A DNA stretch of 64,000 nt from Mya arenaria (lineage: Eukaryota; Mollusca; Bivalvia; Myida; Myidae). The translations under genes were made by a program, and so were the position numbers. Every line of letters begins with the position of its first letter. The stretch's first letter is position 1. The stretch is from positions 17,009,088-17,073,087 of the forward strand of contig NC_069124.1 in assembly GCF_026914265.1 (NCBI RefSeq). The letters run 5' to 3'. Of this stretch, positions 22,158 to 44,904 are shown piece after piece. The notes under the pieces are model-generated. The model had not been told where the DNA came from. It did no database searches and saw only the letters and a list, made by a program, of their open reading frames with translations.

Positions 22158-24458
22158 CAACACATCATGATGTGTATATAGGTGTTTCTGCGTAGTATAA
22201 AGTTTATACTACATCTTACATTTGCGAATTCGTTTGTATAACTAGATCTCCTGCTTGACAACATATATGGTGTAAACTCACTTTGTGTATTAAAGATACT
22301 TGTTATTCGGCCAAGTGTGCATCGTACCTGCACTGCAGAAGCCGTTGAACATTTATAAACAACATTGAATTATAAACCATTTGTCCATGAAATGTTAGGT
22401 TGTGCAAATCAAGTGCGCATTAGATGGTAGACTTTCATATTCAAGTATACTAGACAACAGATTCGTTGAAATTGCTGTGTTTAAGATACAAATCTTTGTA
22501 TATATAGGTGGCCTTGTATCTATTTAAATCGGTATTAAAATGCCAGTGGCCATTTCACTGTCCAGCAGTTTATGGACCAATAACGGCTCGGTCAAGTTCA
22601 CGGTAGCCGTATAAACAGCTTAAAATATCTAACAATTGTGAATTCAATCCTAACCACAAACATGAAACAGTAGGAACTGTTTACACAGTGTTAGACTTCC
22701 AACATAAATAGTGTAAATATTGGTGTAGTCTTTGTTCGCCTACCTGATACATGTACTTAAATAAAAAAAAACGTTCTGTCTGTAAAGGGACAAAATATAG
22801 ATTAATGTTTTTTTATTCTAATGCATTATTTTTACTATAATAAATGAACCAACATGATTTGTGTAAAGATAGAAAAATATAAGCGTTATTTTGACGTTTT
22901 TTTATGCCCCCGAAGGTGGGCATATTAAAATCGCACCGTCCGTCCGTCCGTCCGTCCGTCCGGCTCTGTAACTTTCCCTTGTATGGACAGATTTTAAAAT
23001 AACTTGCCAAATGTGTTCCACATACCAAGACGACGTGTGGCATGCAAGACCCGTGTCCCTACCTCAAAGGTCAAGGTCACACTTAGTGTTTATTCACAAT
23101 GGAGTGCTGTATACAAGGACATAGGGTATAGGTTGTCGTGTCCGGGCTGTAACTTTCCCTTGTATGGCCAGATTTTAAAATAACTTGCTACATGTGTTCC
23201 ACATACGAAGACGACGTGTCCTGTGCAAGACCCATGTCCCTACCTCTAAGGTGAAAGATACACTAAGTGTTTATTCACAAGGGAATTCTGAATATAAGGA
23301 CATAACAGTGTAGGTTGTCAAGTATGGGTGGTATTTTTTATGCTCAGAGGAAATTTAAAATAACTTGCCATATGTATTTGACACATAAAGGCAAGATCAA
23401 TTTTTCATGTACTGACCTTGTTCGTAGGTCAATGTCACATTCGGGGGCATTCGTCACATACTGTGACAGCTCTTGTTTACTGGGGAATTTGTGGCCACGT
23501 ATATATTAATGACCCCCCCCCCCCCCGATTATACAAACAATTTTTTTCTCAGTACACAAATCAAATGTTTTTGTTTTGTTTGAATCATTAAAGCCAATTG
23601 AATAAAACATTATAATATATTAACCCATGGCATCAACCTATTGTGTGCCCCTTTAGAGGGATATATCATATCAACCCATCTTGTTTGTTGTTGTTTTTTT
23701 GGGGGGTGGGGGTCCTTTAAGGTACGTTTACTCCCATGTCGGAACAGTAACAAGACGGCGGAGCATAACCGTGCTATAACTTATGTGCGGATAAAGTAAA
23801 ACGCTCTCTATCTTGACATACGCTAGTTATTGTACGTTGTCCTTGACACCATGGTACAGCACAGCTTCTTCATGTACTACCCCCGTGATTGTAGTGATAC
23901 GCACTGAAACCGTCGTGTATAATTTCAAAAACTTGGGTTGAGAAAGCAGTTACTATAACTAAAACAGGGGATTGAATAGCAAATATAATATTTAGTACTT
24001 AGTCTTGTCACGACATTTGTTCATGCATGTTTTGGTTCTCTCAGAAAAGCCTTTAACCTCATGTATTCATAACTAGGTAGGCAAGAAACGTTGTCTTCCT
24101 GTAGACCAGCGTTGACTAGGTGTAAACTTCGACATGGTTGTTTATGTAAGAACACCGAGCCGTTTGAATGAACGGAATTTAGTTGTGTTTGGTACGCATG
24201 GACACAACATATTGACAGTCGTTTCATCTCACTTCATGTAGCTATTATAGCTGACCAACTAATGGTCGTTACATTTTCTGGTTGTATGTACTACAACATT
24301 ATTAAGTTCTGACTTATTTACAGGGTTTGGAAGATGAGAACGAGGAGCGAGGAAACTGGTCGGGGCGCTTCGACTTCTTCCTCAGTTGCCTTGGTTACGC
24401 CGTGGGGCTTGGCAACGTGTGGAGGTTCCCCTACCTCTGCTATAAGAACGGAGGCGGT

Positions 24459-24490
<32 letters not shown>

Positions 24491-25534
24491 TAGTTTGCCT
24501 GATATAAGCTTATCTGGTTTATGAAGAAAACGTCGATATATTGTTACAGCCTGGCGTCATCGTCGGCGCTGTGCAAACTATTTAAGTTTGGCCATTACTA
24601 AAAAAACATTTATTATTCTAACATGAAACTTGTTAGATATGTTGCAGGATTCGATGGTCACATTTGTAATCAGGTCCATAACTTATTGTCGATTAATCCC
24701 TCTTTCGACCGAAAACAACAACATAAAGCGTTGGTGTGTATGCATTCGTAAACTTTTAATGTTACAGATAAAAATATGTATGGAAGGGCAATCGTAACAA
24801 CTCGGCCATCTCTGGCAAGCTTCGAGATATCCTGATGGATACTGGCCGAGCTGTTCCGATTGTTCGAAGGACTGGTAACACTTGATTAACAACATCTTTA
24901 TTAAATATTGGTTAGTAGTTGGTAATAATTCGTTCGAAGGATTTACACGTTTTTAAGGAAAAATGATTTCATTCATTTCGCCGCCCTTTTGTATTTTCGG
25001 TCAAAATCGAATTAAATAAATTACATTGGTGTGGACCAAGAGATACTTTACGTTCTCGCCTTTCCCTGAATGTACTAAGATAAAGAGTGAAATTTAGCGC
25101 CATTAACTATTTAGACATTAGATCATATTCCATAACCTTACGGAGATCGACAATTTGATGGGGTCACAATCATTATAATTATAGTTATCTATCATACCAA
25201 TTCTCACTATATCAATTTTCACAGACAAACATAAACTATTTAAATGCTTATGCAACCGAATGGATATTCAAACTGTTCTATACCAGTATTTAACTGTTCT
25301 ACATATCGCTTTGCGCATGAAACTTTATATTTGACTGCATTCCGCAACCAAATATTGGATTGCTGTTTCGTAACCAACCGTTTTTGTAACCAAAGTGTTT
25401 CGTAACAAAATGTGTCAACAAGTATTTCGACTATTTTTGTAAATGTTTTAGCATACAGCCTTAGTGTCTAAATTTTATATTCGTTGCACAAGCGCTCGTT
25501 TGTTGTTTGCACCCCACCCCCACCCCGACCTAAG

Positions 25535-25593
<59 letters not shown>

Positions 25594-28500
25594 AAACATC
25601 AAAAGCAAATAATTGTTATTGAACGCCTAAGAAAAATTGTTAAGAACAGTTTGAATTGTTTCATTTTGTTATTGATTAAAGCTTTTTATTTAATCGACAT
25701 ATCAACATAATACCTAAATGTAACAAGTTATTAAAGCTGCACTCTCACAGATATACTATTTTTACAACTTCTTTTATTTATTTTTTTGTCTTGGAAAGAA
25801 CAACTTTTTGCGTAAAGATCTGCAAACCAATAATATAAGATTGCTGACAAAAAATCAGACCGTAGATTTTCATATTTCCGTTCGAAATTAAATGTCTTAT
25901 GGCTTAAACCGTCACTAACAGTTTAAGAAAAATGCATTAAACATCAATTAATGACCTTAAATATTAAAAAATGCGATTTTGTCAGCAGTCTTTTATAACT
26001 GGTTTCCATGGATTTTCGGAAAGATTAGCTCGTTCTAAGACAAAAATTAAAAAAAAGTTTTCAAAACGTTCAATCTGTGAGAGTGCAGCTTTAAAGAGCT
26101 GCCTTAAACAATGAACATGTGTATGACTATGTGTGACGTCCACGAGCGTAGAAAATGGCACGTCATGCTATCCTTCCTGACTGTGGATCCTCTGTAATAT
26201 AAGTTCATCCATCCAGTAGCACAACTCTTTGCTCTGTGGTATGCCTTAGTTGAATAGGGCGAGCAGAAATAGCAATATGTACCATATCCCACACATGTTC
26301 TATCGAATTTAGGTCCGGGGATCATGCTGGCAAGTAGTATTTACAAATAACACTACTCTGTCATGTGTAACTGATATTGATCTGTGTCCCGTTTCAGGCG
26401 CGTTCTTCATCCCGTACGCGATTATGTTGTTTTTTGTGGGTCTACCCATCTTCTTCATGGAGTTGTCCCTTGGCCAGTTCACGAGCTCCGGCCCCCTCAC
26501 TTGCTGGAAGTACGCCCCGCTCTTTCAGGGTAAGACATCGTATAACGGTTAGGCACCACGGACTATATACATACTACATATGCCATGTCACTTTGTCAGT
26601 TCACCAGCTCCGGATTGCTCACTTGCAGCTAGTACCGCACGTCTCACTTTTCCAGAGTAAGATTAAGGGTTTTAATTAAAAAGTAACCACTTTTCTAACT
26701 CAGCCATATTTGAAATTTAAGCATATGTTTTTAAACACGACCCAATCTTCTTGCAGGTGTCGGCTTGGGTATGGTGGCCGTGTCGGCCATGGTGGCCATC
26801 TACTACAACATGATTATCGGCTGGTCCCTCTACTACCTGTTCGCCTCCTTCACGAGCGAGCTCCCGTGGGATAAGTGTAACCCGGAGTGGGCCACAAAAA
26901 GTACGTTCACCGCGATAGATTAGATTAAATGTACACTTCGATAGATTATAATAAATGTACACTTCGATAGATTATAATAAATGTACACTGCGAGTCATTA
27001 TAGTCTCCGATATATTATAATAAAACATATCTTAAATAAAAAATACGCTGCTAAAAACAGTCGTAAAATGTCCGGAACCACTGCAAAACCTGCTCTCAGA
27101 CTCAACATCACTTGCACTGCCATGGTTATAAGAATACTAAACTGAAAATATAAATATGCATGAGACAGGGATACAACAGAAAATCCCTGTATAGACATTC
27201 TGAGCCAAAGACTATTTTGAAATAGATGTTTTGTTTATCCAGTATCAGCGTCAAACGACCAGCTCAATACAAATGATAGACGAGGAAACCTCCTTATTTC
27301 CACTAATAACCAAGCCTATGCCTCATATTATCCTTATAATCATATACCGCATATATACATGCAATTCATACATGCAACACTTGCATTATCAACAAATGTA
27401 TCAGACTATTGACTAAGGTGTAAACATTAACTTCCAAGAGTTCAAATGGTAAAACACTTGACTATCAGCCCGGGGGACACAAGTTCTATCCCCGACTCAG
27501 TACTTAAAAATACTATTTTCTGGTGGGGTTGGTTGCGTAGGCGCGTCAATAGGAGTCCAGTGTGTCAGTGCTGAAGGTCACCAGGGCATATCGTAGCTCT
27601 AACAAAGGTCACAACCTGTCCATTTACTATGCCCCACAATCTTAAACGAACCAGAGATACCCTAGTTATTGACGTGCACCAGTGTATAGCACAGTCACAC
27701 GGGACCCCCGTTTAATGTCTCCCTCCTTTACTAGCGACCACTTGATAGACAGTCAAGTGTGTTACCATTAGACCATAGATCCACCCATGGTATTTTATTT
27801 CAGTGTGTATCGACTTCATCAAGAAGGCTGAGGACAAGATTGAATGCTACGCCAACGGCCTCGATCCACGTGACGACGGCGCCTGCTACGACCTGGGTGG
27901 GAACGTGACTATGATCTACGACCTCAAAATCGCCAAGGACCATGGAATTGAAAGGACGCTCCCATCTGAGGAATATCTCGAGTATGTGTTTTTGCCTTTG
28001 AGTCCGGCCTTTGATTAATATACAACAAAACCCCGTTGGCTCGAACTCGCCTGACTCGAACTCGATTGACTCGATCTCCTCGTTGGCTCAAACTTAATGC
28101 AAAGGACCAATTTCTAAAAAAAATTACTGAATATGAGAATTCCGGCTTGGCTCGAATTTCCCGCTTGGCTCGAATTTCCCGATGCTCGATGTTTTTTCGT
28201 CGATCCCTTTGGAGTTCGAGCCAAACGGGGTTCGACTATATTCGTTTGTATAAATAAAATATGCATGCGTTATGTTTTATCCTTTGGTGACATTAAATAT
28301 TTGTAGTACTTGGTCGTTGAATTGGGAGGTCCAACATTGTAATACAAAACAATATGAGGTTCACGTAACAGTGGATTCGGCATTATTGTAAATAAGAAAA
28401 AGTAAGTGGTTTTAAAATAAAATCCAAAGACTTTTTATGGGCAAAGGTACTGTCAATAAGTTAGATAAATTTGGAGACAAAAGGGAGGTTATGGTGTTTC

Positions 28501-31500
28501 TGGCATATAGACCTTTCCAGTCATAACAACGTTTTACATAATTTGAAATCGCCCTTTAGGTACAAAAATGTCGGTTTAAAGTATATGCTGAGCGTATTGA
28601 ATATTTGGTACGATGTTATAGTGTTAAACATTGCCAATAAAAGATGAACATACATTTTATTATTATTTTAGGTACAAAGCCCTCGGGAGCGGTCTCTCAA
28701 CCGGACTTGGTGACCTGGGTCCTATCCGCTGGCAGATGGTTCTTTGCTACCTACTCGCCTTCATCTTCGTCGTCCTCGCCCTCTCCAAGTCCATCAAGTC
28801 TTCCGGAAAGGTCAGGCTGGTTTTATTTTGCTTTAAAAAACAACACCTAGGTATTTAAAAAATGACAATTTTGTCTGCTTTCCCAAAATACCTGACATAT
28901 AACCGGAAGATCACGAGTATAGAGCGCAATGCATTGTGGGAAAGTCGATCACGTGATACGTACAGCACGGTTAAATTCCACTATGTTTCTAGGTTGTGTA
29001 CTTTACGGCCACGTTCCCGTACGTCGTGTTGATCATCCTGTTTGTAAGAGGTCTTCTGTTGGACGGATACAAAGAGGGTATCGAATTCTACATTACCCCC
29101 GACCTCTCCAGACTCAGCGAATCAGTTGTAAGTAAAGTATCTTTATTTATGCCGTGATAGCCAGAAATTCGAATCATAATATTCTTACACGTTCAAAAAT
29201 GAGTTCTCATGAAACTTTTTTGCACAAGTTCTTCCTGTTGATCGACTGATAAAAATGGCCTAGAGCTGGTGTTTTTTTGCTCTTAATTCATAAAGCAGAA
29301 GTTATTTTCAAAAGCTTTATAAAAATCTAACACCACACAAAGGGTATTAAAATGCTGTGGACCCCGCAAGCTTTTCTCACCATGTATTCCCGGTCTTACA
29401 GATCTGGAAAGATGCCGCTGTGCAGATTTTCTTCTCTCTGTCTGCCTCATGGGGAGGTCTGATCGCCCTTGCCTCCTACAACAGGTTCCACAACGATGCC
29501 CTCAGGTACGCATAAATCTATGCATCCTCGGCACCCCAGCGTATCATAACCTATATGATACCCTGGGCAAATCAGCCGTAAAAATCTCGTACTCATGAAT
29601 AATTAATAAGGTGAAATCCAGCCGTTTGATTGGTCGCATGAGACACATCTCATGCGGTGCGGAAATGGCCGAGAAGTAAAAGGATGTAATCTCGGTTCGA
29701 AATAATCTAATGCTAAAGTGAAATAACTATGCGATCTACTTAAAGCGTAGTTAAATGTTCATATTTAAATATTGTAAACTGTCCATATACATCCGAGATT
29801 GTTTTCGATGGAAATTTCATGCATCGTGTGCCAACATGAGTGACTTTGCATGAGTAAATATGCCCCCCTTCGAAGAAGAGGGGTATATTGCTTTACACAT
29901 GTCGGTCGGTCGGTCGGTTGGTCCGTCGGTAGACCAAAGCTTGTCCGAGTGATAACTCAACAATTTCTGGACGTATGGTCATCAAACTTGAAGGTTGGGC
30001 CTGACCAGCAGATGACCTCTATTGATTTTAGGGCTCATCGGGTCAAAGGTCAAGGTCACAGTGACCTTTAATCGTAAATATTTTTAAAGCTTGTCCGAGT
30101 GATAACTCATCAATGCCTAGATCTATGGTAATCAAACTTGATAAGGAAGTTGGGCCTGACCAGTAGATGACCCCTATTGTTTTTGGGGATCAGCGGGCCA
30201 AAGGTCAAGGTCACAGTGACCTTGAATGATAAAAGGTTGTCAGAATGATAACTCAACAATGCCTGCATACATGGCCCTCATACTTGACTTGGAGGTTGGG
30301 TCTGACCAGTAGATGACCCCTATTGTTTTGGGGGGTCATCGAACCAAAGGTCAAGGTCACAGTGACCTTGAATGGTCAAAGGTTGTCCGTGTGATAACTC
30401 AACAATGCCTAGACCTATGATCATCAAACTTGACTTGGAGGTTGGGTCTGACCAGTAGATGACCCCTATTGTTTTGGGAGTCATCTGGCCAAAGGTCAAG
30501 GTCACAGTGACCTTGAATGGTAAAAGGTTGTCCATGTGATAACTCGTTAATGCCTGCACCCATGGCCCTCAAACTTGGCTTGGAGGTTGGGCCTAACCAG
30601 AAGATGACCCCTATTGTTCTTGGGGGTCATCGGGCCAAAGGTCAAGGTCATAGTGACCTTGAATGGTAAAAGGTTGTCCGAGTGATAACTGGACAATGCC
30701 TGCACCCATGGCCCTCAAACTTGACTTGGAGGTTGGGCCTGACCAGTAGATGACTTCTATTGTTTTGGGGGGTCATTGGGCCAAAGGTCAAGGTCACAGT
30801 GACCTTGAATGGTAAAAGGTTGTCTGAGTGATAACTCCACAATGCCTGCACCCATGGCCCTCAAACTTGACTTGGAGGTTGGACATGACCAGTAAATGAC
30901 CCCTATTGTTTGGGGGGGGGGGGTCATTGGGCCAAAGGTCAAGTCACAGTGACCTTGAATGGTAAAAGGTTATCCGAGTGATAACTCGACAATGCCTGCA
31001 CCCATGGCCCTCAAACTTGACTTGTAGGTTGGGTCTGACCAGTAAATGACCCCTATTGATATTAGGGATCAAAGGTCAAGGTCACAGTGATCTTGATAGT
31101 ACACTCGACAATTCCTGGACCTATGGCCCTCAAACTTGACATGAAGGTTGGGCCTGACCAATAGATGACCCCTCTTGACTTTTGGGGTCATCGGGCCAAG
31201 GTCAAGGTCACAGTAACCTTAGACGCAAAAAATTAACAAATCTTCTACCAGTGATATCTCAACAATGCCTGAATCTATGTTCATCAAACTTGACATGGAA
31301 GTTGGGCCTAAACAGGAGATGACCCTTATTGATTTTATGAGTCCTTGGGTCAAAGGTCAAGTTCACAGTGACCTTGAATGCGAAAATGTTTCTAGTGATA
31401 ACTCGACAATGCCTGCACCCATGGCCCTTAAACCTGACTTGGAGTTATGTCTGACCTGTAAATGACCCCTTATGGTTTTAGGGGTCATCGGGTCAAAGGT

Positions 31501-34500
31501 CAAGGTCACAGTCTGTGTGATAACTTGTCAATGCTTGCACCCATGGCCCTCAAACTTGACATTTAGAATTTTAGTGACCAGCTGATGGATTTTGAGGTCA
31601 TAGAGTCAAAGGTGTCATTTCGGTCCATGCATATTTCATTCAATTGTACATATAATCCGGACAACATGGCGCTCAGGGGGGGGGGGGGGCATAATGTTTG
31701 ACAAACATCTCTTGTTTTTATTATTTTCACAATCGTTGTCAAATAAAAAACAAGCATTTTAAACTAAACATACTATATTGTACTTGCAGGGACTCCATCG
31801 TCGTGGCCATCGGAAACTGCCTTACCAGTGTGTTTGCCGGTTTCGTCATCTTTTCCTACATCGGCTCGCTCTCGAAAGTGCTTGGCGTGCCAATTGAGGA
31901 TGTCGCCAAATCTGGACCATCCCTTGCGTTTGTTGTGTACCCTTACGCCGTAACGCAGCTGCCCGGGGCCCCCTTCTGGGCGATTCTGTTCTTCATGATG
32001 TTGCTCACTCTGGGTGTGGACTCACAGTTTGTGCTGGTGGAGACGGTCACAACGGCGCTCATGGACCGCTTCCCGAAGCTGCGCGCCTACAAGCTGCTCA
32101 CCGTCATGATTCTATGCGTTATATTTTTCCTGCTTGGCCTTACTCTCACCACAAATGTAAGTTCTGAAAGTGTTTTGATTTGTAAAAATGTGTCGTTTTT
32201 TAAAGTATTCAAATAGTTTCAGAAAATAATATTGATGCATATAAAAGGGTTCTTTAATGTGTTGTGTCCGTATGTTTTTTTATAATCCGCATAGATGTAA
32301 TCTATCTACAGACCTTTGCTATATTCGCTCTTGTCAATAGCATCATCGACCCTTTTCATATATTAAGGTGACTTCTAGTTTTCTACATCTGACTATTAAA
32401 GTTATTCCACTTGCGTTAAGTCGCATACAACATTGCAAAACTATGACATCATACAAACAAACCCTCGTCCCTATATTTCAGGGCGGTATATACATGTTAG
32501 AAGTGATGGACACATACGCGGGTGGCTGGAACATCATGTTTATCGCCATCTGCGAATGTATCTCCCTCTGCTACGTTTACGGTGAGTTAAATACCATGTG
32601 GATATGTTAAGTGTAACCATTGTCACTAGCAGCTGTGATAATCCTGACTGTCAGTTAGTGTATACCACGTAATAAATTACGTCATAAATGCTACGTCGGA
32701 AGGCAACATTTTGCTTCGAATGAAGAATGCCCTTTGTTTGTTTTTAAAATGTCGTAGTAAAAGAAAAGTTATCTTTAATTTAAATCTTCATTTTAAGCAA
32801 AATTGCCTTATGACGTAGCATATATGACATAATTTATCACGTGGTATACACACTGACTATACGAACGTTTCATATGCTGCCTGTTCGCCATTTACAGTCA
32901 TGACTAAATATGTCATAAAACCTAAACACTAGGCATTTAAACAGGCTGCCAAGGACTATTTGATACAAACGTGTGTTTAATTTGCATGAAACCTTGTTTT
33001 ACTACATGCCTAATACAGATTTATCTTTTCGTAAACATTTGTTTGATGAAAAATTATACTGAATGGTAAAGATTGTATGAAATTTTAAAATAGTTTATAT
33101 GTAAAATAAGACGACTAAAAGTGGATTATTTGTTAATTATGTGTATCATAGAGTACGTAAACACAATTTGTATGATTCTCAGTCCAAGAGGTCACCCTTG
33201 GTGCCAATCGCTCGAATCAGGTTACTTGTAGCTCGATTGGCCAAAAATGCAATCCAAATACCAAGTAACTGTGATTGGGACAAGAATGTATTTAGTTTCA
33301 AAGAGCATCAGTATTGAGCCTATAATATAAGCGATTAGGTGTAGAAGGAAGATTGGACTATGTCACAAATTGGTTACTTATGGCATTTTAACTTTCTTTA
33401 TAATTTAATCTTATTTTGTATGTAACCTTAAACAAAGTAGTTCTTTGGCAATTGAAGAGCTAAGCGGCCCTTTGGGTAGACATTGCCAGTGTGTGTATAC
33501 CACGTGATAAATTGCGCCATATGTGCTACGTCGGAAGGCACAGGTGCTCGTCACAATGCTTGGATACAGTAATACATTTTTTTTATATTTTTAATATTTT
33601 TTTATTTTTAATATTTATTGTTTTTATTATTTATTTATTTAGGTCAAGATAGTGAATACATGTCATTCAAAAAAATATTCCACAATTTTTCATGAAAGAA
33701 AATTAGTTTAATATATAAATAATTATAAGGTGAACATGTGCAAAAAATGCATCAATTCCAAACGGACCTAATCAATAGAGCAAAGTTCCTAAAATAAATG
33801 AGATAATCTAATAGTTATTACTGTTCTGATAAGGTAAGGTTCCCATCTACAAGAAAAATATAACTCTTATGCTAGTAAGATTGACCTTTACGGCATATTT
33901 AAACAAAATGCACCGACCAGAAACTGAAATTCGCCATTTGAATTGAAACATAGGGCAGTCTACGCCGTTTACGGAGCCCCGCCTGAGGTCTTTTACCCGA
34001 GTTTGATTTAGGGTTAAGTTTCTTTAAACACTTCGACAAACCTTTTCACAATACGGCCGTCTGACGGACCATTGTCAAAACATTATTTTGGAAATGGGTT
34101 TGTCGAAGTGTTTGATGAAACTCATCACCTTATCAAACTTCGGTAATAAATCGGTCTTTAAGCGCCTTCCGACGTAGCATATACGACGAAATTTACCACG
34201 AGAGTAATACATATCGCTAAATATGTCACCGAAGCAAAGATAGTGCTCCCTGCTGAACATACCGCTGCATAGAATAATAAGTAAAACCATGAAAACGCTC
34301 AATAGCAAAGATCTCTGATGAACCTCAACTTAAGGTAGTGTAAACGTGTATAATGTTCGTCTCACACCTTTGAAGCTAGAGGTCTAAGCTCCGAGAGCCT
34401 TTTCATGACCCCTTAATAAGAAAACCTGGCCCCAGTTTCTCGAAACTTCTGAAGTCCCTTATATCAGGATTAAGCTTATCTCAATATTTTTTCTTTGTTT

Positions 34501-37500
34501 TAATTCGCGTAATATTAACTTCATTAATAGTAATAATACTTTAAATAGGAATTACTATTATGATTATCATAAAAAACATATTTTATTTACGAAAATCACA
34601 TTTAAGTAACTATGTGTTTTGTATTATTGAAATAAGCTACTTAATCTTAAGCTTATTTATAAGTAGTTTTAAGACATTTGGGCCAGTACTGTTTTTTACC
34701 CAAACACATATCTTGTAATCTTTTTTAATGGAAAACTACGAAAAAGCTGCGAAAAGTAAATTAATTGTTAACTATGTGGTACAAAGGTTAGTTATATTCA
34801 ATGGATTGTACACATCGACACCAAGTTTATGTCAGTTTTCGACAATTTTCTTTTCTTTTTTTCGCTATTTCATCATACGTAGTATAGCCCTTTTAAAGCT
34901 GTCTATATTATGTGGCTCAGTTGAATACAATAAACTACGGAGCATACCAAGGAACTTAACTTGAGAGGGGTGTCATTATTCCTACAGGTATCCGCCGATT
35001 CCTGGTTGACATCGAGACGATGATTGGCGCGCAGGTGTGCGGCTTCTGTCCCTTCTTCGTGTGCAAATACTGGTGGGCCCTCAACTGGTGCGTTCTAACA
35101 CCAGCCGGCGTTCTTGTAAGTAAAGGAGAGGTGGTTGTGGTGGTTGAGGGGGTGAGGGGGTAGGTCATTTTGACTCCCTATTCCTTGTGGTTAGCTGGTC
35201 TATTTTTCGAAGTAAAGGGTCTAGTTATTGCTATAGTCCGTTGTGGAAATACTTTAAACTAAGTATTCAAATTAAACTTGGTACATAGTCATTACCAGTG
35301 ATAATACGTGGATCTGCAACAAGTCTCATAAATCTATCTAAAAACTGTTTTGGAGTTGAACCCATTGAACGACTTGTTGGGGATAACAAAAGCCTTTGAA
35401 ATTGTAAAATACATGTGATATACAGGTCGCACAACACATATTTGTATTTCTAGTGTTTCTTACTTTGTAGAAATAAAACAAATAACTGTTTGCGCTTAGG
35501 CGATCTCCCCTATCTCTTAGATATTTGAAATAATTCTAAACAAATGTTTTTTAGTTTTCTCCAAAGTTTCGGAGCCACTTGTAATCATGATTTATTAGAC
35601 AACAACACACGGTAACACAATCATTTTTCCCCATTCTAACTTGAATAAATGAAAAAAAAATCGGCATTTTATTTTGTTTTCGTCAAGTTGCAACATAACG
35701 GAGAAACACTATGTGACGTCCTAGTGTGCTTTCTATCCAGTCCGCTCGTTGTTTTCATATCTGATTGCGTAAATAACAAGGATAGTTGTTTCTTTCGTGT
35801 TGCAAAAAAACAACAAACCGTTATAGTGTTGGTATGTAACACAGAGTTGTACTACTCTGGTGATACGTGTGCGTTGCATACCTCACTGGCAATATGTTAA
35901 ACCGTAACATGTATATGTTTTACAGTTCATCATGATCTTCTCGTGGGTGAAGTACACAGACATGGAGGGTGACGAGTACCCCGAGTGGGCGGACGCCATT
36001 GGCTGGCTCATGACCATGACCGTTATCGTGTGTATCATAGGCGGCGCCCTCTACGCCATTTGCTCAGCACCAGGATCCATTGGGGAGGTCAGTATTTCGC
36101 GTGTGTGTGGGGGGGGGGGGGATGCATTGGCAGTGTAATCTGGAATAGAAGAAATTTGGCGGATGGGGTAATCGGGGGCGACAGGTTAGGGTGCAAAGCA
36201 GTGCTCACTGCCAACGCTTTATATGAACACGGTTTGTCTGATAATGATATTTGTACCATGACCACTTTTAAACATAACACTATAACCTATATTTACAGCC
36301 AATGAAATCGCCTATCGACCTTCGAATAAGTCCCACGTTTAAACATCTAACGCCTTAACATAGATGACGCGATAAATTGGTTCCCCGCCAGATGAAGATA
36401 TGTCATAACCTCAGTCAGTGACTACGTAAGAAGGGATCCGCTCGCTCTGCCTTCTCACCTTTTAAGACTTTGTTCTAAAATATGTTCTAAATTTCACATA
36501 CTGAACGAATGTATGTAGTTCAAATATATACATGTATTGTCATCAAGTTACAAGACCTTTAAGTTATGTTCTCCTTACCTGATCACATTTCTATGACCCG
36601 TGTACTGAATGGTACAATGGACATGACATTCAACGTATAAACTTGAAGTGCTCATCCAAGGCTGGTACGGGCACCGCACGGTTTTTTTACCCAATTCGTT
36701 CGACCTTAATATACCCTATTTGTGGGTATTATTTCGCTTTGTCACCATTTGCCTGTTGATATGGATCGTATGTCTTATTTTATGGTTTTAGTTGTCTGCT
36801 TCAACTCGTCTCACTCTTTTCCTACATGTATTTTAACTAGTATACTATGTCTTTTGAAATAAATTTAATACTTAATAGGCAATTGTAAGGTTAAAGAAGA
36901 CACCGAGGGGTTAAGTGTGATGATATTGTTTACCTTATAGAATGCATATTTTCTCTCTTTTTTGCCTTTTTGACCCCCCCCCCCCACCAAAACCGACAAA
37001 AACAAACAGTGGCCATAAATATTGTACAAGTTAACTTTGACCGGTTGAGGGGTAAAATGTCAACATTAAATGCATACCGGCAATCCATGAATGAATTTTA
37101 TTTTCAAGAGAATGCTTTATTGCATGCAATGGTTGCTACCTTTTCAGAAACTTCGTCATGCTACCAGTCCTACAGTTGAGTGGGGTCCCGCCCTTGTCAA
37201 GCACCGCAAACTGGTCGCCAAGTATGTTCCTGGCTTCGTCGTGGACCCATGGGGCAAGGGGGATGAAGAAGCAGCTGTCAACCCGAACGATATTGGGCTC
37301 CAGGTGAGTCGCCATTTTGTGTGACGTCACTAAATATATGACGTCATATAATTTCTACATCTGATTGCTTTCTATTCGTTTTAAGAACGACAATCTCGAA
37401 TACTTTTATGGTTATTTAAATTACAACTAGGTTAACTGTGAGCTTAAAGGGGTTGAATATTTTGTTCAATTATTTTTCCTGAATTCGGTCGTTCTTTAAA

Positions 37501-40334
37501 CGGATGAATAGTAGTGCGTGAACAACGCTTTAACATGTACTATTAACACTTTGTGATTTCAAAAAGATATGCAAACTAAGGTCATTGATGAAGTCGAAAT
37601 TCTATGATTGACGAATTAGATAAATTATCATTACAGTTGAAACCCGTTGGCTCGATATCGCTTGACTCGATTTCCTCGTTTGCTCGAACTTAATGTATTA
37701 TTACTATAGGAGCGATTATTTTTACTCAGTTTAGGCATTGCCGCTTGGCTCGATATTCGCGAGGCTCGAAGTATTTTGGCCGGTCCCTGGGATAGCGAGC
37801 CAACGGGTTTCGACTGTACATTCAATAACCTGTTATGAACTTTTGGATTGGATTGCATACAATGAATGTAACTTTTGAATTAAAATAGGACTTATACAAA
37901 GTCTTACAAACACATATTCCCTTTGATGTGCCGTTTGATATGTATAGTGGCTGTGTGTATCTTGCACTTAGGTGTATTTCTAATAGACGTACAGGTTCTT
38001 TTGTTTCACTGTCTTTTTAACATGCATAGTATTAGCTCAAGTCCTTTTAGCTCATTAACAGACGAGAATACGCCTATTTGATTAATAACAGACGAGTAAA
38101 CAGTAACTGTCATAGCTTGTACGCACCTTTGTTAATTGTAATGCACCAGTCAATTGTAACCACGCCTCAGGTCCGGGGGTTTACCGGGGATAGCGGGGAA
38201 AATGGGCCGTGTTTTACTCTCCATGTAAATCCGCATTGCCGAGTGAATGCGGTGGTTGTGTTTTCGCGCCGAAAATAGCGGGGAATATGCGTTACGGATG
38301 TCACCGGATTGCGGGGGCATTTAGCGGGGTTTTACCAGGAGTTTGTTTCCGCAGGGCGGGGATTTTACCTGGGATTGGCTGAACCGAAAGTCAAAGTCCT
38401 CGCTAATCCCCGGACATGGGGCGGGGGGGGGGGGGGTCCTTGTTACAATTCACTGGTGCATAAGCATCTTATTTATTAAGACATTTGTATAAATTATCTA
38501 TCTCATAATTACTTACATTGCTTCATTTTCAGTTATCATTTAATGAGAAATACCACAGTCCGATAAAGGCAGTTTACGTGGAAGACATTGCTATAAGAAA
38601 GAAAAGTGAATAGTCAATATCGAAAGCCATCAGTTCCATGTGTCAAATACACACATTGTTATTTAAGTGCTATAAACTATCATTTATGATCGCGAATGTA
38701 GGGTGGCAGAACTGACTGCATAGTCATTTATATTTGACGAGATTGTGTTTAAAGTCGTACTTCTGTAATTTGAATTCAATCGCCGTAAGATGTGTTGTTT
38801 AATAATAGAAGCTTCTTACACCAATCTGAACACCTCGGTATCTTCGCCATACGACAAGAACACAGTGGTTACGCTCAAGCATTTTTATTTTTCTTATTCG
38901 AAACGGGAACTTTTTTCGAATATTTTTAAATGTTTAATACACGAGAGAAACTTTTTCCCTATCTGGTGTTGGGGGTTGTGAAGCACTAAAAAGCAGTTGT
39001 TTCGCGTGCAAATTGGTCAACTGACTAATACATATATAGAATTTTTATTTAGTTGTCCCTGACCTTAATTCGGGGTTGTTTCGAAGGTAATGGCCGAGGT
39101 GCTCCGATTGACCAAACACGAAACGAAGGAGCGCGATATAATACATAAGTGACATTGGAAAAGCCAGCTCTAATTGGTTGCTTAGCAACTACAAGGACTG
39201 GTCAGAACTTTCGTGTAGCGCTTAAACTGTAATTTATGGCTATCCATACTTTAAAACTTTGATAAGAAAAATCTATTATAAGATAGATTTACAGAGCGGA
39301 TAGTGAATAAATTTACATAAACGATTAATATGAAAATAAATTTTGCAATATACCCGAATTCAATTTTAGTACGAGAATGGTAAAAATTTCTACGCCGTCA
39401 GTAAGTGACAATACTAAATATTGAGTTATGTAGAGACTGCAAACATAATGGAATGCTTCTGTAGACGAACTTCGTTGGCTCGAACTAACTGGGATCGATA
39501 TTTTTCATTTTCTCAAATTTTGTACAAATAAGCGAGTTTTGCCTGGATCGAATTATCATTCGCTCGAAGTTTTGTCGACCGACCCGGCGATTTCGAGCCA
39601 TCGAGTTTCGACTGTTTGTGATTTGCAGGCGTCCTAAACAAAGCTCAGTTCTGCTTTTGGTACTATCACAGTAAACGGTGTTTCTTTTCTTCGCTCTTTT
39701 TGGGCCTGTGTGAACACGATTAGCAAAAGCTGATGCTGCGCTTTAATAGCATGACTCCCGAAGAGTGCCGAAGATACAATAACACGTTTAACTTTCATCT
39801 TAACTCTTTTCTTTGAATAACTGTTTTGAACCGGTATAGACAGGCAAATACTTCAGTCTCTACATACGACACATACGTAACTTCTTATATGCATGCGAAT
39901 CTTCTTGCTTCTAGATATTATTGGAAATCTGATATACTCAATGAATGTGCATTGTACTTGATGCAACTTGCAATGCCGTACATTCCAAACCACAGCTGTA
40001 TTAAGAATACCATCGTTTCAAGCCCCTGCACGCATCGTGATATTCACTCATATTCCAAAACCGAGTGTAATAATCAAAGCAACTATAGAGACCTCACATG
40101 CACTGCTCGCATTTCTTCTGAGTTCCTTGCATGCACCTTGTTTACACAGTATCGATATTCCAGGAGAAAAAGGCGCCCCTAGCGGCTCCAATGGCCGCCC
40201 CGATGGGCGCGGAGCCGCACCTGCCCACCTCGTACCCTAGCTCCTATGCATCTCAACCAGCTACCTATCCTTCCAATAATGATCGACCCGCGGAATCGAA
40301 TCAGACTGTCTACGTGCAGTACGTGCCCGAGTAG
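16350..40334 (+). CDS. SLC6 sodium- and chloride-dependent neurotransmitter/amino-acid transporter, glycine-transporter-like (14 exons)
   Basis: Fourteen GT-AG exons join in frame to a 715-residue protein (659-residue core plus a 56-residue tail from the exon at 40164-40334). It has the 12-helix layout of the neurotransmitter:sodium symporter family. Visible hallmarks: TM1 [15 protein letters not shown] (57-71), with Gly61 where monoamine carriers have Asp; NGGGAFFIPY; an EL2 Cys pair (C162, C171) and glycosylation site N203-V-T; TM6 [14 protein letters not shown]7 [12 protein letters not shown]8 LGVDSQF. Chloride ligands known from SERT have counterparts in Y84, Q328, S332 and S368; Na2 ligands in D432 and S433. 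The SLSAxWGG motif and the FHND and WGPALVKHR regions resemble glycine transporters (GlyT2 type), so glycine or a small neutral amino acid is the best guess for substrate. It acts in the plasma membrane, driven by the Na+ gradient. Alternative last exons are listed separately. Confidence 0.93.
16515..16640. repeat. (ATT)/(ATTT) tract ending in poly-G
   Basis: T-rich low-complexity sequence followed by about 15 G at 16624-16639, in transporter intron 1. Confidence 0.9.
17711..18806 (+). mobile_element. Pearl/HINE-like element, family 1 (about 146-bp core repeats)
   Basis: Begins AGCTCCACTGGCC; the inverted match GGCCAGTGGAGC is at 18771-18782. It is followed by a hairpin (GGCAC TGAT GTGCC, 18786-18799) and the end CTCTTGTT. 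A (TGCG)n microsatellite at 17766-17798 precedes six core repeats of about 146 bp. No coding capacity. This plan is that of non-autonomous Helentron-type elements and of bivalve 'pearl' elements. Confidence 0.75.
19347..19946 (+). mobile_element. Pearl/HINE-like element, family 4
   Basis: Begins TAGCTCGACT; the inverted match AGTCGAGT is at 19914-19921. Then come a small hairpin (GTC CTAC GAC, 19927-19936) and AGCTTTTGTT. A GCGTCGGCGTCCGCG block takes the microsatellite position, and two diverged core units (marked by CTGTTCATTCAAT) follow. Confidence 0.6.
22063..22157. repeat. (AAT)n and (ATG)n microsatellites
   Basis: AAT units at about 22063-22100 and GAT/ATG units at 22121-22157, in transporter intron 1. 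Confidence 0.95.
22904..23477 (+). mobile_element. Pearl/HINE-like element, family 2, copy a (short)
   Basis: Begins ATGCCCCCGAAGGTGGGCAT, then (CCGT)n, then two core repeats with GTCAAGGTCACACTTAGTG. The inverted match CGGGGGCAT is at 23442-23450, a hairpin GTCACA TAC TGTGAC at 23453-23467, and the end is GCTCTTGTT. Confidence 0.75.
24324..24456 (+). CDS. Transporter exon 2: TM1
   Basis: Residues 34-77. Starts [20 protein letters not shown] and runs through the TM1 signature [17 protein letters not shown]. Donor G|GTGAGT is followed at once by (GT)n and a run of G. Confidence 0.97.
25536..25590. repeat. (CAA)n microsatellite
   Basis: About 18 perfect CAA/ACA units in transporter intron 2. 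Confidence 0.95.
25732..26093. mobile_element. Intact foldback-type MITE
   Basis: Terminal inverted repeats TAAAGCTGCACTCTCACAGA and its inverse. The match continues inward with mismatches (AATATAAGATTGCTGACA against TGTCAGCAGTCTTTTAT), so most of the 362 bp could form one hairpin. No open frame. A second copy lies at 9326-10360. Confidence 0.8.
26398..26529 (+). CDS. Transporter exon 3: TM2
   Basis: Residues 79-121, [20 protein letters not shown] then ELSLGQF, the conserved TM2 and loop. Phases 1 and 1. Confidence 0.97.
26757..26900 (+). CDS. Transporter exon 4: TM3 and start of EL2
   Basis: Residues 123-169. Contains [19 protein letters not shown] (with the substrate-site Tyr138) and Cys162 of the EL2 disulfide. 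Confidence 0.96.
27440..27785. mobile_element. Possible tRNA-derived SINE remains, two inverted heads
   Basis: AATGGTAAAACACTTGACT (27445-27463) and the inverted AGTCAAGTGTGTTACCATT (27751-27769) both resemble a tRNA A-box region. The left one is followed by AAGTTCTATCCCC, a weak B box. Flanks and target duplications were not resolved. Confidence 0.35.
27804..27981 (+). CDS. Transporter exon 5: extracellular loop 2
   Basis: Residues 171-228, hydrophilic, with Cys171, three further Cys-containing spots and the glycosylation site N203-V-T. Sequence here is lineage-specific, as is usual for EL2. Confidence 0.93.
28023..28237. mobile_element. Tc1/pogo-like MITE, copy 1
   Basis: Ends CCCCGTTGGCTCGAACTC and GTTCGAGCCAAACGGGGTTCG are inverted matches. 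The interior repeats GGCTCGAA motifs. Same family as 37634-37816 and 39462-39614. Located in transporter intron 5. Confidence 0.65.
28672..28810 (+). CDS. Transporter exon 6: TM4
   Basis: Residues 230-275, with [20 protein letters not shown]. Ends in phase 0 at SSGK. Confidence 0.95.
28993..29127 (+). CDS. Transporter exon 7: TM5
   Basis: Residues 276-320: [20 protein letters not shown] and the following loop that ends SRLSESV. 45 codons, phase 0 at both ends. Confidence 0.96.
29402..29505 (+). CDS. Transporter exon 8: TM6 with chloride and substrate ligands
   Basis: Residues 321-354. [19 protein letters not shown] holds Q328 and S332 (chloride ligands by homology) and the unwound substrate-binding segment. 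Confidence 0.97.
29860..31716 (+). mobile_element. Pearl/HINE-like element, family 3 (about 146-bp core repeats)
   Basis: Begins ATGCCCCCCTTCGAAG, then (GGTC)n, then about eleven core repeats of 145-150 bp, most with the palindromic AAGGTCACAGTGACCTT. The inverted match GGGGGGCAT is near 31684-31692, a hairpin ATGTTT GAC AAACAT at 31694-31708, and the end is CTCTTGTT. In transporter intron 8. Confidence 0.75.
31790..32156 (+). CDS. Transporter exon 9: TM7, EL4 and TM8
   Basis: Residues 356-477, the longest exon. [17 protein letters not shown] (TM7, N364 and S368), [18 protein letters not shown] (EL4), and [16 protein letters not shown] (TM8, D432 and S433). Confidence 0.97.
32482..32581 (+). 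CDS. Transporter exon 10: end of TM9 to TM10
   Basis: Residues 478-510, [20 protein letters not shown], with the conserved GG-x-Y motif of the family. Confidence 0.96.
32652..32878. mobile_element. MITE with GTATACCACGT termini, short copy
   Basis: The outer sequence GTGTATACCACGTAATAAAT is inverted at the right as AATTTATCACGTGGTATACA. The match continues inward (TGCTACGTCGGAAGGCA against GCCTTATGACGTAGCA). In transporter intron 10. Confidence 0.7.
33487..34215. mobile_element. Longer element with the same GTATACCACGT termini
   Basis: The left end GTGTATACCACGTGATAAAT and TGCTACGTCGGAAGGCA match the short MITE; the right end CGCCTTCCGACGTAGCATAT is inverted. Inside, 34022-34121 holds a separate hairpin (AAACACTTCGACAAACC against GGTTTGTCGAAGTGTTT). 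Confidence 0.6.
34988..35115 (+). CDS. Transporter exon 11: TM10-TM11
   Basis: Residues 512-553. [12 protein letters not shown] followed by the Trp-rich [17 protein letters not shown] segment. Confidence 0.95.
35926..36087 (+). CDS. Transporter exon 12: TM11-TM12
   Basis: Residues 554-607. [19 protein letters not shown] is the conserved start of TM12. Phase 0 at both ends; a poly-G run lies about 25 bp past the donor. Confidence 0.95.
37148..37303 (+). CDS. Transporter exon 13: cytosolic C-terminal region, end of core
   Basis: Residues 608-659. [11 protein letters not shown] resembles the post-TM12 segment of glycine transporters. Ends in phase 0 at NPNDIGLQ; any phase-0 acceptor downstream can follow. 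Confidence 0.93.
37634..37816. mobile_element. Tc1/pogo-like MITE, copy 2 (intact, TA flanks)
   Basis: CAGTTGAAACCCGTTGGCTC at the left and GAGCCAACGGGTTTCGACTG at the right are inverted repeats, flanked on both sides by TA, the target duplication expected of Tc1/mariner/pogo-type elements. 183 bp, no open frame. Confidence 0.8.
38142..38460. mobile_element. GC-rich MITE with TGCACCAGT termini
   Basis: TGCACCAGTCAATTGTAAC at the left is inverted at the right as GTTACAATTCACTGGTGCA. TAA follows the right end and precedes the left end, a possible target duplication. The interior is unusually GC-rich (many GCGGGG and a poly-G run) against an AT-rich intron. Confidence 0.7.
38533..38613 (+). CDS. 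Alternative last exon A of the transporter
   Basis: After acceptor CATTTTCAG, 26 codons in phase 0 with a TAG stop: [20 protein letters not shown] and a short basic tail RKKSE. The VYV motif matches the other candidate tails. No AATAAA is close; the first seen is at 39306. Confidence 0.6.
   Translation, partial: LSFNEKYHSPIKAVYVEDIAIRKKSE
39462..39614. mobile_element. Tc1/pogo-like MITE, copy 3 (diverged)
   Basis: CTTCGTTGGCTCGAACTAAC at the left; TTTCGAGCCATCGAGTTTCG then ACTG at the right. Clearly of the same family as 37634-37816 but with more substitutions. Confidence 0.65.
40164..40334 (+). CDS. Last exon B of the transporter (used in the 715-residue model)
   Basis: After ATATTCCAG, 56 codons and TAG. 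The peptide is rich in Ala, Pro, Ser and Tyr and ends [10 protein letters not shown]. It is GC-rich against an AT-rich background and is followed by AATAAA at 40662-40667, which favours it as a real terminal exon. Confidence 0.75.
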   Translation, partial: EKKAPLAAPMAAPMGAEPHLPTSYPSSYASQPATYPSNNDRPAESNQTVYVQYVPE

Positions 40335-40661
40335 ACCGGGGCTACACAGACACACGGACAATGGTCTATATCAGTTCGGTGACCCCAATTGGCTTTCGTA
40401 CCCCACCCGCTTGTACCCTGTAGCACCACATGTAGCCGTAGAAAAGACAAACAATCTTTTTCTCACTTGCCTGCCACATTATCCGAAACCAAGCTTGAGT
40501 CCCGCTCTCTTTGACCATTATGTGCTTCCTGCAAATATATGAAATTACGACCTCGCAGGGTGTTTACTAGGTCCGCGGCCGGCCTTACTTCTTAACTGCA
40601 AGTTTCTACTTTTCTTGTAACCAAGACAACCATTAAACGTGAACAAATACGATGGGCATTA

Positions 40662-40667
40662 AATAAA
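40662..40667 (+). promoter_or_regulatory. Polyadenylation signal for last exon B
   Basis: AATAAA, 328 nt after the stop codon of exon B. Confidence 0.55.
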
Positions 40668-41365
40668 AACATGAATTTTGTGCATTTATAAAACAATCCG
40701 GAAGATAAAAATTGACTATTGACAATTAATTTCGTTCGACAAGGTAACATTCAGTTTACTGTTTCAAGTTATGGCATTGTTATTTATTTCACAATTAACT
40801 CATTTTTATCGATCTTACATCTTGCACCACGAAACTAAACGATTTTTCTTTAAACCATGATCTTTGTTTTCACATGAATGTCTGTTTTGAATTTAATGCA
40901 ATGAATCAAATGTTCATTCTTTGTCACAGGCAAATGTTTGAACCTCTGTAGAGTGAAAGTTTTAATACAGTCATCTTCAATAAAAAAAAATTCAAATGAT
41001 TACGCTCATCTTCAATACTGTTAGTGGACATTATTAGAAGTTATGTAATCAAAACTATACAAAACTTGATCTGTGTGAACATTCTGTTATAACAAATTAA
41101 TTATCTACTGTTGTTCAAAATCCATGTTTACATTTTCTTCAAAGTTTTTCTTCTAACCCTTGTTTCTAATTTAATCTTAGAAAATAACATTTGGCATGCT
41201 GGGGCGGAGTTCAGTTGACTTGCATGTATTTGTTCAGATTAACCATAACTGAAAAAATTATTCAACATGTCTGTTTACCAGATTTTCCATTGCTTCGAGT
41301 GTAAGTTAGCAGGACCCGGTCGCATTGTCGCATCGTACTAACCTAGTTTAATTTCTTGTTTTTAG

Positions 41366-41419
41366 AGCTATAGCCCCGCCCAGGCCGACTACCCTGTAAA
41401 ACAGGTCTATGTAGCGTGA
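41366..41419 (+). CDS. Alternative last exon C of the transporter
   Basis: After TTGTTTTTAG, 17 codons in phase 0 and a TGA stop: SYSPAQADYPVKQVYVA. It shares VYV and the YPxxQ-type composition of exon B. No canonical AATAAA was seen before the mobile element at 41641. Confidence 0.6.
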   Translation, partial: SYSPAQADYPVKQVYVA

Positions 41420-41640
41420 GGTATTTATACATACCAGCGTTTCTGCGGAATGGCTATTGTGTTTCTCATTTGTTTTTACCTAAACGTCCACGATCCTGGA
41501 CCATTCCTTAGGGTATGATCTTTTTTGTGGACCAATAAGAATTGAGAATTATCCCAAACTTTATATTCCAAAGAACGCTTGGTTGCTGACTATATTTTTT
41601 AGAACGAATTGACAAAGTTCACGTTTGTTAAAGTCTTTTT

Positions 41641-42910
41641 ATGCCCCCGAAGGTGGGCATATTAAAATCGCACCGTCCGTCCGTCCGTCCGTCCGTCCGG
41701 CTCTGTAACTTTCCCTTGTATGGACAGATTTTAAAATAACTTGCCACATGTGTTCCACATACCAAGACGACGTGTGGCGTGCAAGACTCGTGTCCCTACC
41801 TCAAAGGTCAAGGTCACACTTAGTGTTTATTCACAATGGAGTGCTGCATATAAGGACATAGAGTATAGGTTGTCGTGTCCGGGCTGTAACTTTCTCTTTT
41901 ATGGACAGATTTTAAAATAACTTGCCACATGTGTACCACATACCAAGACGACGTGTCGCGTGCAAGACTCGTGTCCCTGCCTCAAAGGTCAAGGTCACAC
42001 ATAGTGTTTATTCACAATGGAGTGCTGCATATAAGGACATAGAGTACAGGTTGTCGTGTCCGGGCTGTAACTTTCCCTTGTATGGACAGATTTTAAAATA
42101 ACTTGCCACATGTGTTCCACATACCAAGACGAAGTGTCGCGTGCAAGACCCGTGTCCCTACCTCAAAGGTCAAGGTCACACTTAGTGTTTATTCACAATG
42201 GAGTGCTGCATATAAGGACATAGAGTATAGGTTGTCGTGTCCGGGCTGTAACTTTCTCTTGTATGGACAGATTTTAAAATAACTTGCCACATGTGTTCCA
42301 CATACCAAGACGACGTGTCGCGTGCAAGACCCGTGTCCCTACCTCAAAGGTCAAGGTCACACTTAGTGTTTATTTACAATGGAGTGCTGCATATAAGGAC
42401 ATAGAGTATAGGTTGTCGTGTCCGGGCTGTAACTTTCCCTTGTATGGACAGATTTAAAAAAAAAACTTGACACATGTGTTCCACATACCAAGACGACGTG
42501 TTGCGTGCAAGACTCGTGTCCCTACCTCAAAGGTCAAGGTCACACTTAGTGTTTATTCACAATGGAGTGCTGCATATAAGGACATAGAGTATAGGTTGTC
42601 GTGTCAGGGCTGTTACTTTCCCTTGTATGGACAGATTTTAAAATCACTTGCTACATGTGTTCCACATACGAAGACAACGTGTCGTGTGCAAGACCCATGT
42701 CCCTACCTCTAAGGTGAAAGATACACTAAGTGTTTATTCACAAGGGAATTCTGAATATAAGGACATAACAGTGTAGGTTGTCAAGTATGGGTGGTATTTT
42801 TTTTATGTTCAGAGGCAATTTAAAATAACTTGCCATATGTATTTGACTCCTTGTTCGTAGGTCAATGTCACATTCGGGGGCATTCGTCACATACTGTAAC
42901 AGCTCTTGTT
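41641..42910 (+). mobile_element. Pearl/HINE-like element, family 2, copy b (long)
   Basis: Same ends and (CCGT)n as the copy at 22904-23477, but with six core repeats of 181-183 bp (unit starts at 41704, 41885, 42066, 42247, 42428, 42611). The 3' hairpin has one changed base (GTCACA TAC TGTAAC). Ends GCTCTTGTT. Confidence 0.8.
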
Positions 42911-43759
42911 TTTTAAGTTATTGTACAATAAGAGTAAGAATATTAGATCATGGTTGGAATGTTTGAGTCATCTATGACGAAATGTCTCGGGGGATTTAAA
43001 AGTAATTGCATTTACAACTTTGCTGTCGAGGATAATATAAACCGCTTTTAAAAATGAGTTTCTAATTTCAATATCCCAGAAGCAAACAATGGCATATATT
43101 AAACTTGTTTCTCATTGGTCCATAAATGACTGCATACACTAAAGATTGGGCTACGCCCTCACTTACGCTGCCCGCACTTCGGGCCCTATTTTCTGTAGAA
43201 CATGTAAGATATACACTCATTTATACCTAAGGTTTATAGATTGTATATAAAGCTAATCCTGATTATAGTTGCCATTTTGTTATACGTGTATGGTAATGTC
43301 ACCCTCAATATATATTTGTCATATTTAATTGTAAATGACAATCATTCTTCCTATTATTATCCGAGGATCGTGGACACAGCCTTTAACAAAACTGATGTGG
43401 ATAAATTATTATACGTATTCCCTTACAAAAATGTATATAAATGTACCGGTTAACTTCCTTCAATGTTTGTTTACGATTGAATGTTAGGTGGTCTGTTTGT
43501 ACGTACTCAAATAACGCCCGATATTTGTTATGTCATGGTGCATATTACTTCAGAAACTATTTTTGTGTTCAATGTGGAATGGGGAACGTTTGTTGATGAT
43601 TTGCGTGCTTTATTCTAATGACTTAAGGATTTGGTTAAAAAACAAACATTTCAATCGACAATTTGAATGAATAGTTATAGGGAATTTTTCAGTTATTTTG
43701 GGCGAAATAGCAAACCCTTGAAACTGGGAATTTTCGCGTAAATATCAGAAAATGTTTGA

Positions 43760-43885
43760 TAAATATTTTTTGTATGTAATTAGTTGCATATACTCCCAAT
43801 GATTTTTGGTGCAATTTATTGCCTTCTAAAGGCTGTTTCCCCTTGTGAAAAAATGTCCATTTTCCCCCAAGAATATTTCCCAATT
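43760..43885 (-). repeat. Dispersed repeat, copy 1 (inverted relative to 63318-63435)
   Basis: Shares the exact 19-mer GGGGAAACAGCCTTTAGAA (minus strand 43842-43824) and diverged flanks with the region at 63318-63435. Nature unknown. Confidence 0.5.
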
Positions 43886-44838
43886 TGATTTATGTAGATT
43901 ACGTTAATGAATGAAAAAAGCAATGAATTTCTTTAAATATAAACAAAATCTTGACAAAACTTACTCTTTCACAGCATAATGTATGCATAAAAAAGTTAGA
44001 ACATCTATATTTACCATTATATTAGCTATTTTGGCCTGATTTTGTACTTTTCCCAAAGTCATTTTGTTCCAAAAACTAATTCCAAAACAATCACTGACTC
44101 CAATTATACTATTTTTGTTGTCGGCTTGTATTATTTCAACAATGAGATAACTAGATTTTCAAACAAAACTTATTGTATAAGGAGTGGCTAAAAAAGCGCA
44201 CTGGGTTACTGAAATGCAGCCAGGCAACCAGGACAGAGGGTTAATGTTTATAAAAGGATTGGTCAATTTGAAAACACCAATCTTGTGAACGGCTTGAAAT
44301 CAATTCTACTTCAGTTTTGTCCAAAAGTGTGTGCATTCCCCTTTGATTGCTTAACCAGTACATTCCACGTAGAAAGCTTGCATCATAGTTACAACTTTGT
44401 TCTCCTTTTACACCACCCTCTAGATTGAGATTGTATAAAATAGTAATCATTATTATAAAATAGTTATATAGCCCATACTGGTCATTATATTTTATTATTA
44501 TCTGGTCATTATATTACATTTTGATCTAGAATAGTCTATGGTGCATGTGCTTGTATTGGATGAGTAAAGAAACTTTTAAGAGGGTGTTGGGCTATTAAAA
44601 AAGTGTCCATTGTGCTTTTTTGAACATAAAATGTATTTGCCAATACACTATGCTCTCTTTTTTCTAGCTTGCCATTTCTTTTCTTACATAAACTTAAGAC
44701 TTTCATAAAGCATGGTGTGATATTTAATCAGATTACACGTAAGACATTTTGCAAAAGTAGTCAGATTGTTGCTTTCTTTTAATTTCAGATATAAATGCCA
44801 CTTTTTTTAAAAGCATTTTCTGTTTTTTATCATTTCAG

Positions 44839-44904
44839 ATGTCGCCTGATGGACAGCATTTTGCACAATCGCAGAAATATCTCGAGGCGGACATTAAAAT
44901 GTGA
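44839..44904 (+). CDS. Possible alternative last exon D of the transporter
   Basis: After TATCATTTCAG, 21 codons in phase 0 and TGA: MSPDGQHFAQSQKYLEADIK and Met. Locally GC-richer and followed by AATAAA at 45007 and 45938. It lacks VYV, so its link to the transporter is weaker; it could belong to another transcript. Confidence 0.35.
   Translation: MSPDGQHFAQSQKYLEADIKM

Follow-up and report, generated by a model that had tools for sequence, protein, structure and literature searches.

Does the transporter gene in this part of the Mya arenaria genome end in a single last exon, or could it give one carrier several different C-terminal tails? The window, by which we mean the whole stretch of 64,000 nucleotides that was analysed, carries on its + strand an SLC6 transporter core at positions 24324..37303. 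The core is modelled with 12 exons on the basis of a Pfam SNF domain and a continuous frame, with the N-terminal exon or exons lying outside the model. Exons 1 to 6 are located at 24324-24456, 26398-26529, 26757-26900, 27804-27981, 28672-28810 and 28993-29127, and exons 7 to 12 at 29402-29505, 31790-32156, 32482-32581, 34988-35115, 35926-36087 and 37148-37303. Together they form a single frame of 1878 bases, or 626 codons, and their junctions carry GT..AG. The protein encoded by the core plus T2, one of the tail exons described below, has a full-length SNF domain (PF00209, E 3e-188, profile positions 1-523 of 524), which places it in the SLC6 family. In a comparison with solved structures, its best relative is GlyT2 (E 1e-176, residues 4-596, 592.6 bits), followed by the proline transporter (566.1 bits) and GlyT1 (541.8 bits), an order that is a similarity ranking and not a tree. 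Judged by these sequence matches, the carrier is an SLC6 protein that is glycine-transporter-like.

A search of the literature on C-terminal isoforms of SLC6 and glycine transporters in bivalves, including Mya arenaria, found no paper on this gene. Clam RNA-seq reads from six tissues, which served for annotation, are described in PMC10663159. Genome searches covered an assembly of 1,216,080,610 bases in 18 contigs, in which the window lies at C3:17009088-17073087. Among viral and prokaryote contigs, no relatives of the last shared exon plus T2 were confirmed, as expected for an animal gene. The intron that precedes the transporter exon at 31790 contains an array with a 146-base unit (window 29936-31512), of which 7.6 copies lie at 29936-31058 and related longer periods extend up to 31512.

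The last shared exon, called exon L (37148..37303, + strand), ends in phase 0 at 37303, as the first-pass annotation had described, and has the consensus donor CAG|gtgagt. If the intron were retained past this donor, the frame would continue for six residues (VSRHFV) and then meet a stop. The same annotation proposed that exon L is followed by up to four alternative last exons, and the positions and lengths that it gave (26, 56, 17 and 21 amino acids) proved accurate, with each exon lying behind an AG acceptor, open in phase 0 and ending in its own stop. The T1 exon (38533..38613, + strand, 26 amino acids) is a possible alternative last exon, listed for its acceptor and its similarity to T3. 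It is preceded by a branch-site-like TACTTAC (38510..38516, + strand) and followed by AATAAA at 39306 and 39335. The T2 exon (40164..40334, + strand) encodes a 56-residue tail and is the best supported last exon by its acceptor and coding score, with AATAAA at 40662 and further listed downstream positions at 40632 and 40658 (+ strand). The T3 exon (41366..41419, + strand, 17 amino acids, SYSPAQADYPVKQVYVA) is a probable alternative last exon by its coding score and its similarity to T1, and it is flanked by the branch-site consensus TACTAAC (41336..41342, + strand) and by ATTAAA at 41661. Both branch sites were scored with approximate weights. The T4 exon (44839..44904, + strand, 21 amino acids, MSPDGQHFAQSQKYLEADIKM) is a weak candidate with a strong acceptor, and its AATAAA at 45007, 102 bases downstream, is the nearest among the four tails. 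Each of the four is therefore followed by an AATAAA or ATTAAA hexamer. The tripeptide VYV is present in T1, T2 and T3, whereas T4 fits in phase but lacks it, again in agreement with the earlier description.

Just downstream of T3, six copies of a 181-base unit occupy window positions 41695-42782. A two-copy array with the same 181-base period and a similar unit is found at 22958-23319.

That each tail follows a good acceptor, is open and has its own stop is true of all four exons, but this combination does not stand above chance. Acceptors were scored with a model trained on 17 sites of this genome (12 from this gene and 5 from paralogs) and with generic weights, which, like those for branch sites, are approximations. 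The two models were applied separately in the candidate-tail counts, the shuffle tests and the T2-anchored triplet test; for the coding, DNA-similarity, branch-site, window-wide and paralog tail analyses, a site was accepted if either model passed it. Trained scores range from -1.05 to 11.77 for constitutive exons (left-one-out) and from 5.16 to 10.83 for T1-T4, and the corresponding generic ranges are 3.2 to 11.1 and 5.6 to 9.2. The strongest acceptor of the four is that of T4 (10.83 trained, 9.2 generic). With thresholds placed just under the weakest of the four tails, 15 (trained) or 22 (generic) stretches of 15-80 amino acids qualify in 37304-46000, T1-T4 included, leaving 11 or 18 others in the same 8.7 kb. 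Because any AG has some phase-0 frame and a stop after it, and so many tails qualify, these features do not discriminate. Likewise, a single donor in this gene is in phase with at least two terminal exons, as in tandem alternative last exons, and decoys pass this test too. Such abundance favours an explanation in which T2 is the sole last exon, while T1, T3 and T4 are chance acceptors followed by short frames and their VYV is a coincidence. We regard this simpler explanation as a serious contender, at somewhat less than even likelihood.

A codon model that sets exons A-L against the introns of the transporter gene was applied to the tails and to 125 pseudo-exons. None of the pseudo-exons reaches the summed coding score of T2, whereas 4 reach that of T3, 23 that of T4 and 64 that of T1; for the mean score, the numbers are 2 (T2), 4 (T3), 25 (T4) and 58 (T1). 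A score restricted to synonymous codon choice is reached by 21/168 for T2, which is unremarkable by this measure, and by 13/168 for T3, 44/168 for T4 and 104/168 for T1, whose codon use is intron-like. The summed signal owes part of its strength to composition, with a GC content of 0.60 in T2 and 0.33 in T1. The lack of a coding signal in T1 and T4 is what would be expected if T2 were the only last exon, whereas the coding score of T3 argues against this, as does its branch site.

The branch score of T3 is equalled by only 1 of 63 decoy acceptors, and the A of its consensus TACTAAC lies 25 bases upstream of the exon. The scores of T1, T2 and T4 are equalled by 4, 12 and 59 of the 63, respectively. 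The best branch score for T4 is 1.4; the constitutive exons of the transporter gene range from 1.2 to 6.3, so a low branch score does not exclude an exon. These results also bear on the possibility that all four exons, including T4, are used as a tail cassette. Although T4 has the strongest acceptor and the nearest AATAAA, it carries no VYV, its coding score is within easy reach of pseudo-exons, and nearly every decoy matches its branch score, even allowing for the constitutive exons that score as low. We therefore consider use of the full set of four to be very unlikely.

On the + strand of 37304-46000 the tripeptide VYV occurs three times, all within T1, T2 and T3. Another three lie on the - strand there, which is in keeping with coincidence, whereas VYV occurs in just 2 of 258 other AG-led tails from both strands of the whole window, which is not. 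Among 1000 dinucleotide shuffles of the region, made with the tandem array removed, none has three VYV tails under either acceptor model, and two VYV tails are seen in 1 (trained) or 0 (generic). When any triplet of equal rarity and equally wide sharing is counted, 78 (trained) or 91 (generic) of the 1000 shuffles provide one, which favours the T2-only explanation; with rarity ignored, some triplet is present in at least three tails in 124 (trained) or 220 (generic). If T2 is taken as given, any of its triplets is found in at least two other tails in 31 (trained) or 55 (generic) of 2000, a result that disfavours T2 as the sole last exon.

A longer likeness joins T1 (PIKAVYV) and T3 (PVKQVYV), which are in register, both from residue 10 after the acceptor, and share the pattern P-[IV]-K-x-V-Y-V. 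An in-register match of this quality is equalled in just 10 (trained) or 9 (generic) of 1000 shuffles, which again speaks against coincidence, with the register test having been picked after the match had been seen. Candidate tails are scarcer in the shuffles than in the real sequence (means of 8.3 versus 14 trained and 10.0 versus 13 generic), and among those with at least the real number, the match is equalled in 2/23 (trained) and 3/206 (generic). Without the demand for register, the T1-T3 score is equalled by the best pair in 208/1000 shuffles with the trained model. In the generic run without register, the best real pair is another, glycine-rich and higher-scoring one, and so its count of 18 does not apply to T1-T3. 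Overall, the sharing of VYV is less striking than first claimed, and the motif appears to offer moderate evidence for T1 and T3 and none for T4.

The common VYV had also been read as a sign of exon duplication. No such event is visible in the DNA, and it could be entertained only as an old one. The P, K, V, Y and V shared by T1 and T3 are encoded by different codons at all five places. When T1-T4 were compared with 100 bases on either side, the best local DNA score of T1 and T3 was equalled by 19 of 200 shuffles, the lowest count of all pairs, and the scores of the nine remaining pairs, among them those with exon L, by 33 to 186 of 200. Given the five differing codons and no DNA similarity clearly above chance, a recent duplication is unlikely, and the likeness might possibly reflect an old duplication, convergence or chance. 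A search of the 1.2-Gb genome that skips very common words gave no indication that T1, T3 or T4 derives from a dispersed repeat, as the one match of each is itself.

SLC6 exon matches in the genome number at least 97, this gene included. A search for paralogs with exon L plus T2 as the query gave 10 matches, of which two are this gene and the other 8 are located on contig C14. These 8 closest paralogs were read together with 7.7 to 8.0 kb of downstream sequence. Their version of the shared exon diverges past F-[VI]-V-D-P. VYV is present in 4 of their 310 AG-led tails in any phase, which is about the background rate of 2/258, so these paralogs are uninformative and give no support for tail conservation, in line with T2 alone being genuine. 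Three of the four are copies of one tail (in L019, L021 and L022) that requires a donor in phase 2; L019 showed a single donor-like site, which is in phase 0, and L021 and L022 showed none. The fourth, in L025, has a phase that fits its donor-like sites, but its acceptor is a good one under the generic model alone (7.0, against 0.0 trained), and no VYV tail is present in the related copies L023, L024 and L026. As candidates for conserved tails, we read all four as chance, being out of phase or missing from sister copies. The best local matches between T1-T4 and paralog tails reach scores of up to 33, a figure that carries no shuffle control.

The AG-led stretch in L019, L021 and L022 reads ...CCDTVYV[SG]I and resembles the TVYV of T2, but its phase does not match the single donor-like site observed. 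It lies 4461, 4270 and 4352 bases, respectively, past the start of the exon match. Two of these copies, L021 (C14:1217000-1226900) and L022 (C14:1191000-1200900), are interrupted by stop codons in the C-terminal exon, which is open in the similar copy L019. The SLC6 paralogs on C14 apparently form a cluster with decaying copies.

The tails end in KKSE (T1), YVPE (T2), VYVA (T3) and DIKM (T4). A class I PDZ ligand has the C-terminal form S/T-x-hydrophobic, and no end of this class is present among T1-T4 (KSE, VPE, YVA and IKM). A hydrophobic-x-hydrophobic end is found in T3 (-YVA) and T4 (-IKM), and also in 35 of 258 further AG-led tails from the window. Thus, the suggestion in the first-pass annotation that the tails control PDZ binding fits poorly.

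The end of T1 has the form of a KKXX signal for retrieval to the ER, in which lysines occupy the third and fourth positions from a cytoplasmic C-terminus. We take the tails to be on the cytoplasmic side from SLC6 topology. KKSE matches this form in sequence only, and 1 of the 258 other AG-led tails also ends in KKXX. T3 has the VYV core without the KKXX signal. In one speculative and quite improbable scenario, the choice of tail would act as an export switch, wherein the T1 isoform stays in the ER, serving as an intracellular pool or acting through oligomers as a brake on surface isoforms carrying T2 or T3. This dilysine reading depends on four terminal residues of T1, whose coding signal is the weakest among the tails. 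A splice variant of the UDP-galactose transporter has been described as carrying a dilysine motif for ER retention (Kabuss et al. 2005, as cited in a passage of PMC6245738). That splice-selected signal belongs to another carrier family, whereas the KKSE of T1 is a sequence match.

From the splice sites, scores and motif counts, we infer that T2 is almost certainly used as a last exon. Use of T3 is somewhat favoured, that of T1 could fall either way, and that of T4 is doubtful. Our proposed explanation, to which we give about an even chance, is that the gene ends mainly in T2, whereas T3, and with less certainty T1, serve as minor alternative last exons that give different tails. T4 probably does not encode a tail and might instead be a decoy or an exon of the 3' UTR. 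Of the four-tail cassette originally envisaged, T2 is thus well supported and T3 and then T1 are plausible, but T4 has an acceptor and a poly(A) signal only. Alternative tails are favoured because of the phases and splice sites, the coding scores of T2 and T3, the branch scores of T1 and T3, the restriction of + strand VYVs to T1-T3, the in-register and anchored tests, the precedents from other carriers, and the absence of any sign, in the genome search, that T1, T3 and T4 are dispersed repeats. The case is weakened because T1 has low GC and intron-like codons, the synonymous score of T2 is ordinary, the motif-agnostic triplet tests are not significant, the shuffles are poorer in tails, DNA duplication is not clear, and the T1-T3 similarity is commonly equalled when ungated by register and recurs in tail-rich shuffles.

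If the proposed explanation is correct, splicing from the single 37303 donor would be in competition with cleavage and polyadenylation downstream of each tail exon, and as a result one transport core would carry a cytoplasmic tail of 56, 17 or 26 residues. The motif around VYV, common to the tails, may bind one partner. Because the tails differ around VYV, the choice among them would be predicted to affect not transport itself but trafficking or stability.

Alternative C-termini are already known from SLC6 and other carriers, including those of GlyT1, NET and EAAT2, the last of which belongs to another carrier family, SLC1. A close parallel is GlyT1 (SLC6A9), likewise an SLC6 glycine transporter, whose GlyT1d and GlyT1e isoforms are described in a section of PMC8699752 as differing at the C-terminal end. 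The GlyT1 isoforms are known in rodents, whereas the clam gene might have up to three or four tails, three with VYV. For NET (SLC6A2), C-terminal splice variants that differ in expression and function, and a role for the C-terminus in trafficking, are summarized in part of PMC2916826. Those variants are known from transcripts and assays, whereas the clam tails come from genome sequence alone. EAAT2a, b and c (GLT-1) differ only in the C-terminal domain, and EAAT2b has PDZ binding that may confine its diffusion, according to an excerpt of PMC8076567; by contrast, class I PDZ ends are absent from all four clam tails. Should T1 and T3 be in use, this would be a molluscan glycine-like transporter that regulates its C-terminus through alternative last exons, like vertebrate GlyT1, NET and EAAT2. 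In that case, control of carrier tails by splicing would seem to predate vertebrates or to have evolved repeatedly.

Elsewhere in the window, about 103 copies of a 66-base unit with 94% matches occupy positions 51557-58351. The unit length is a multiple of 3, and the array contains long open frames on both strands, of up to 1108 codons on the - strand. This array is probably a satellite rather than a gene.
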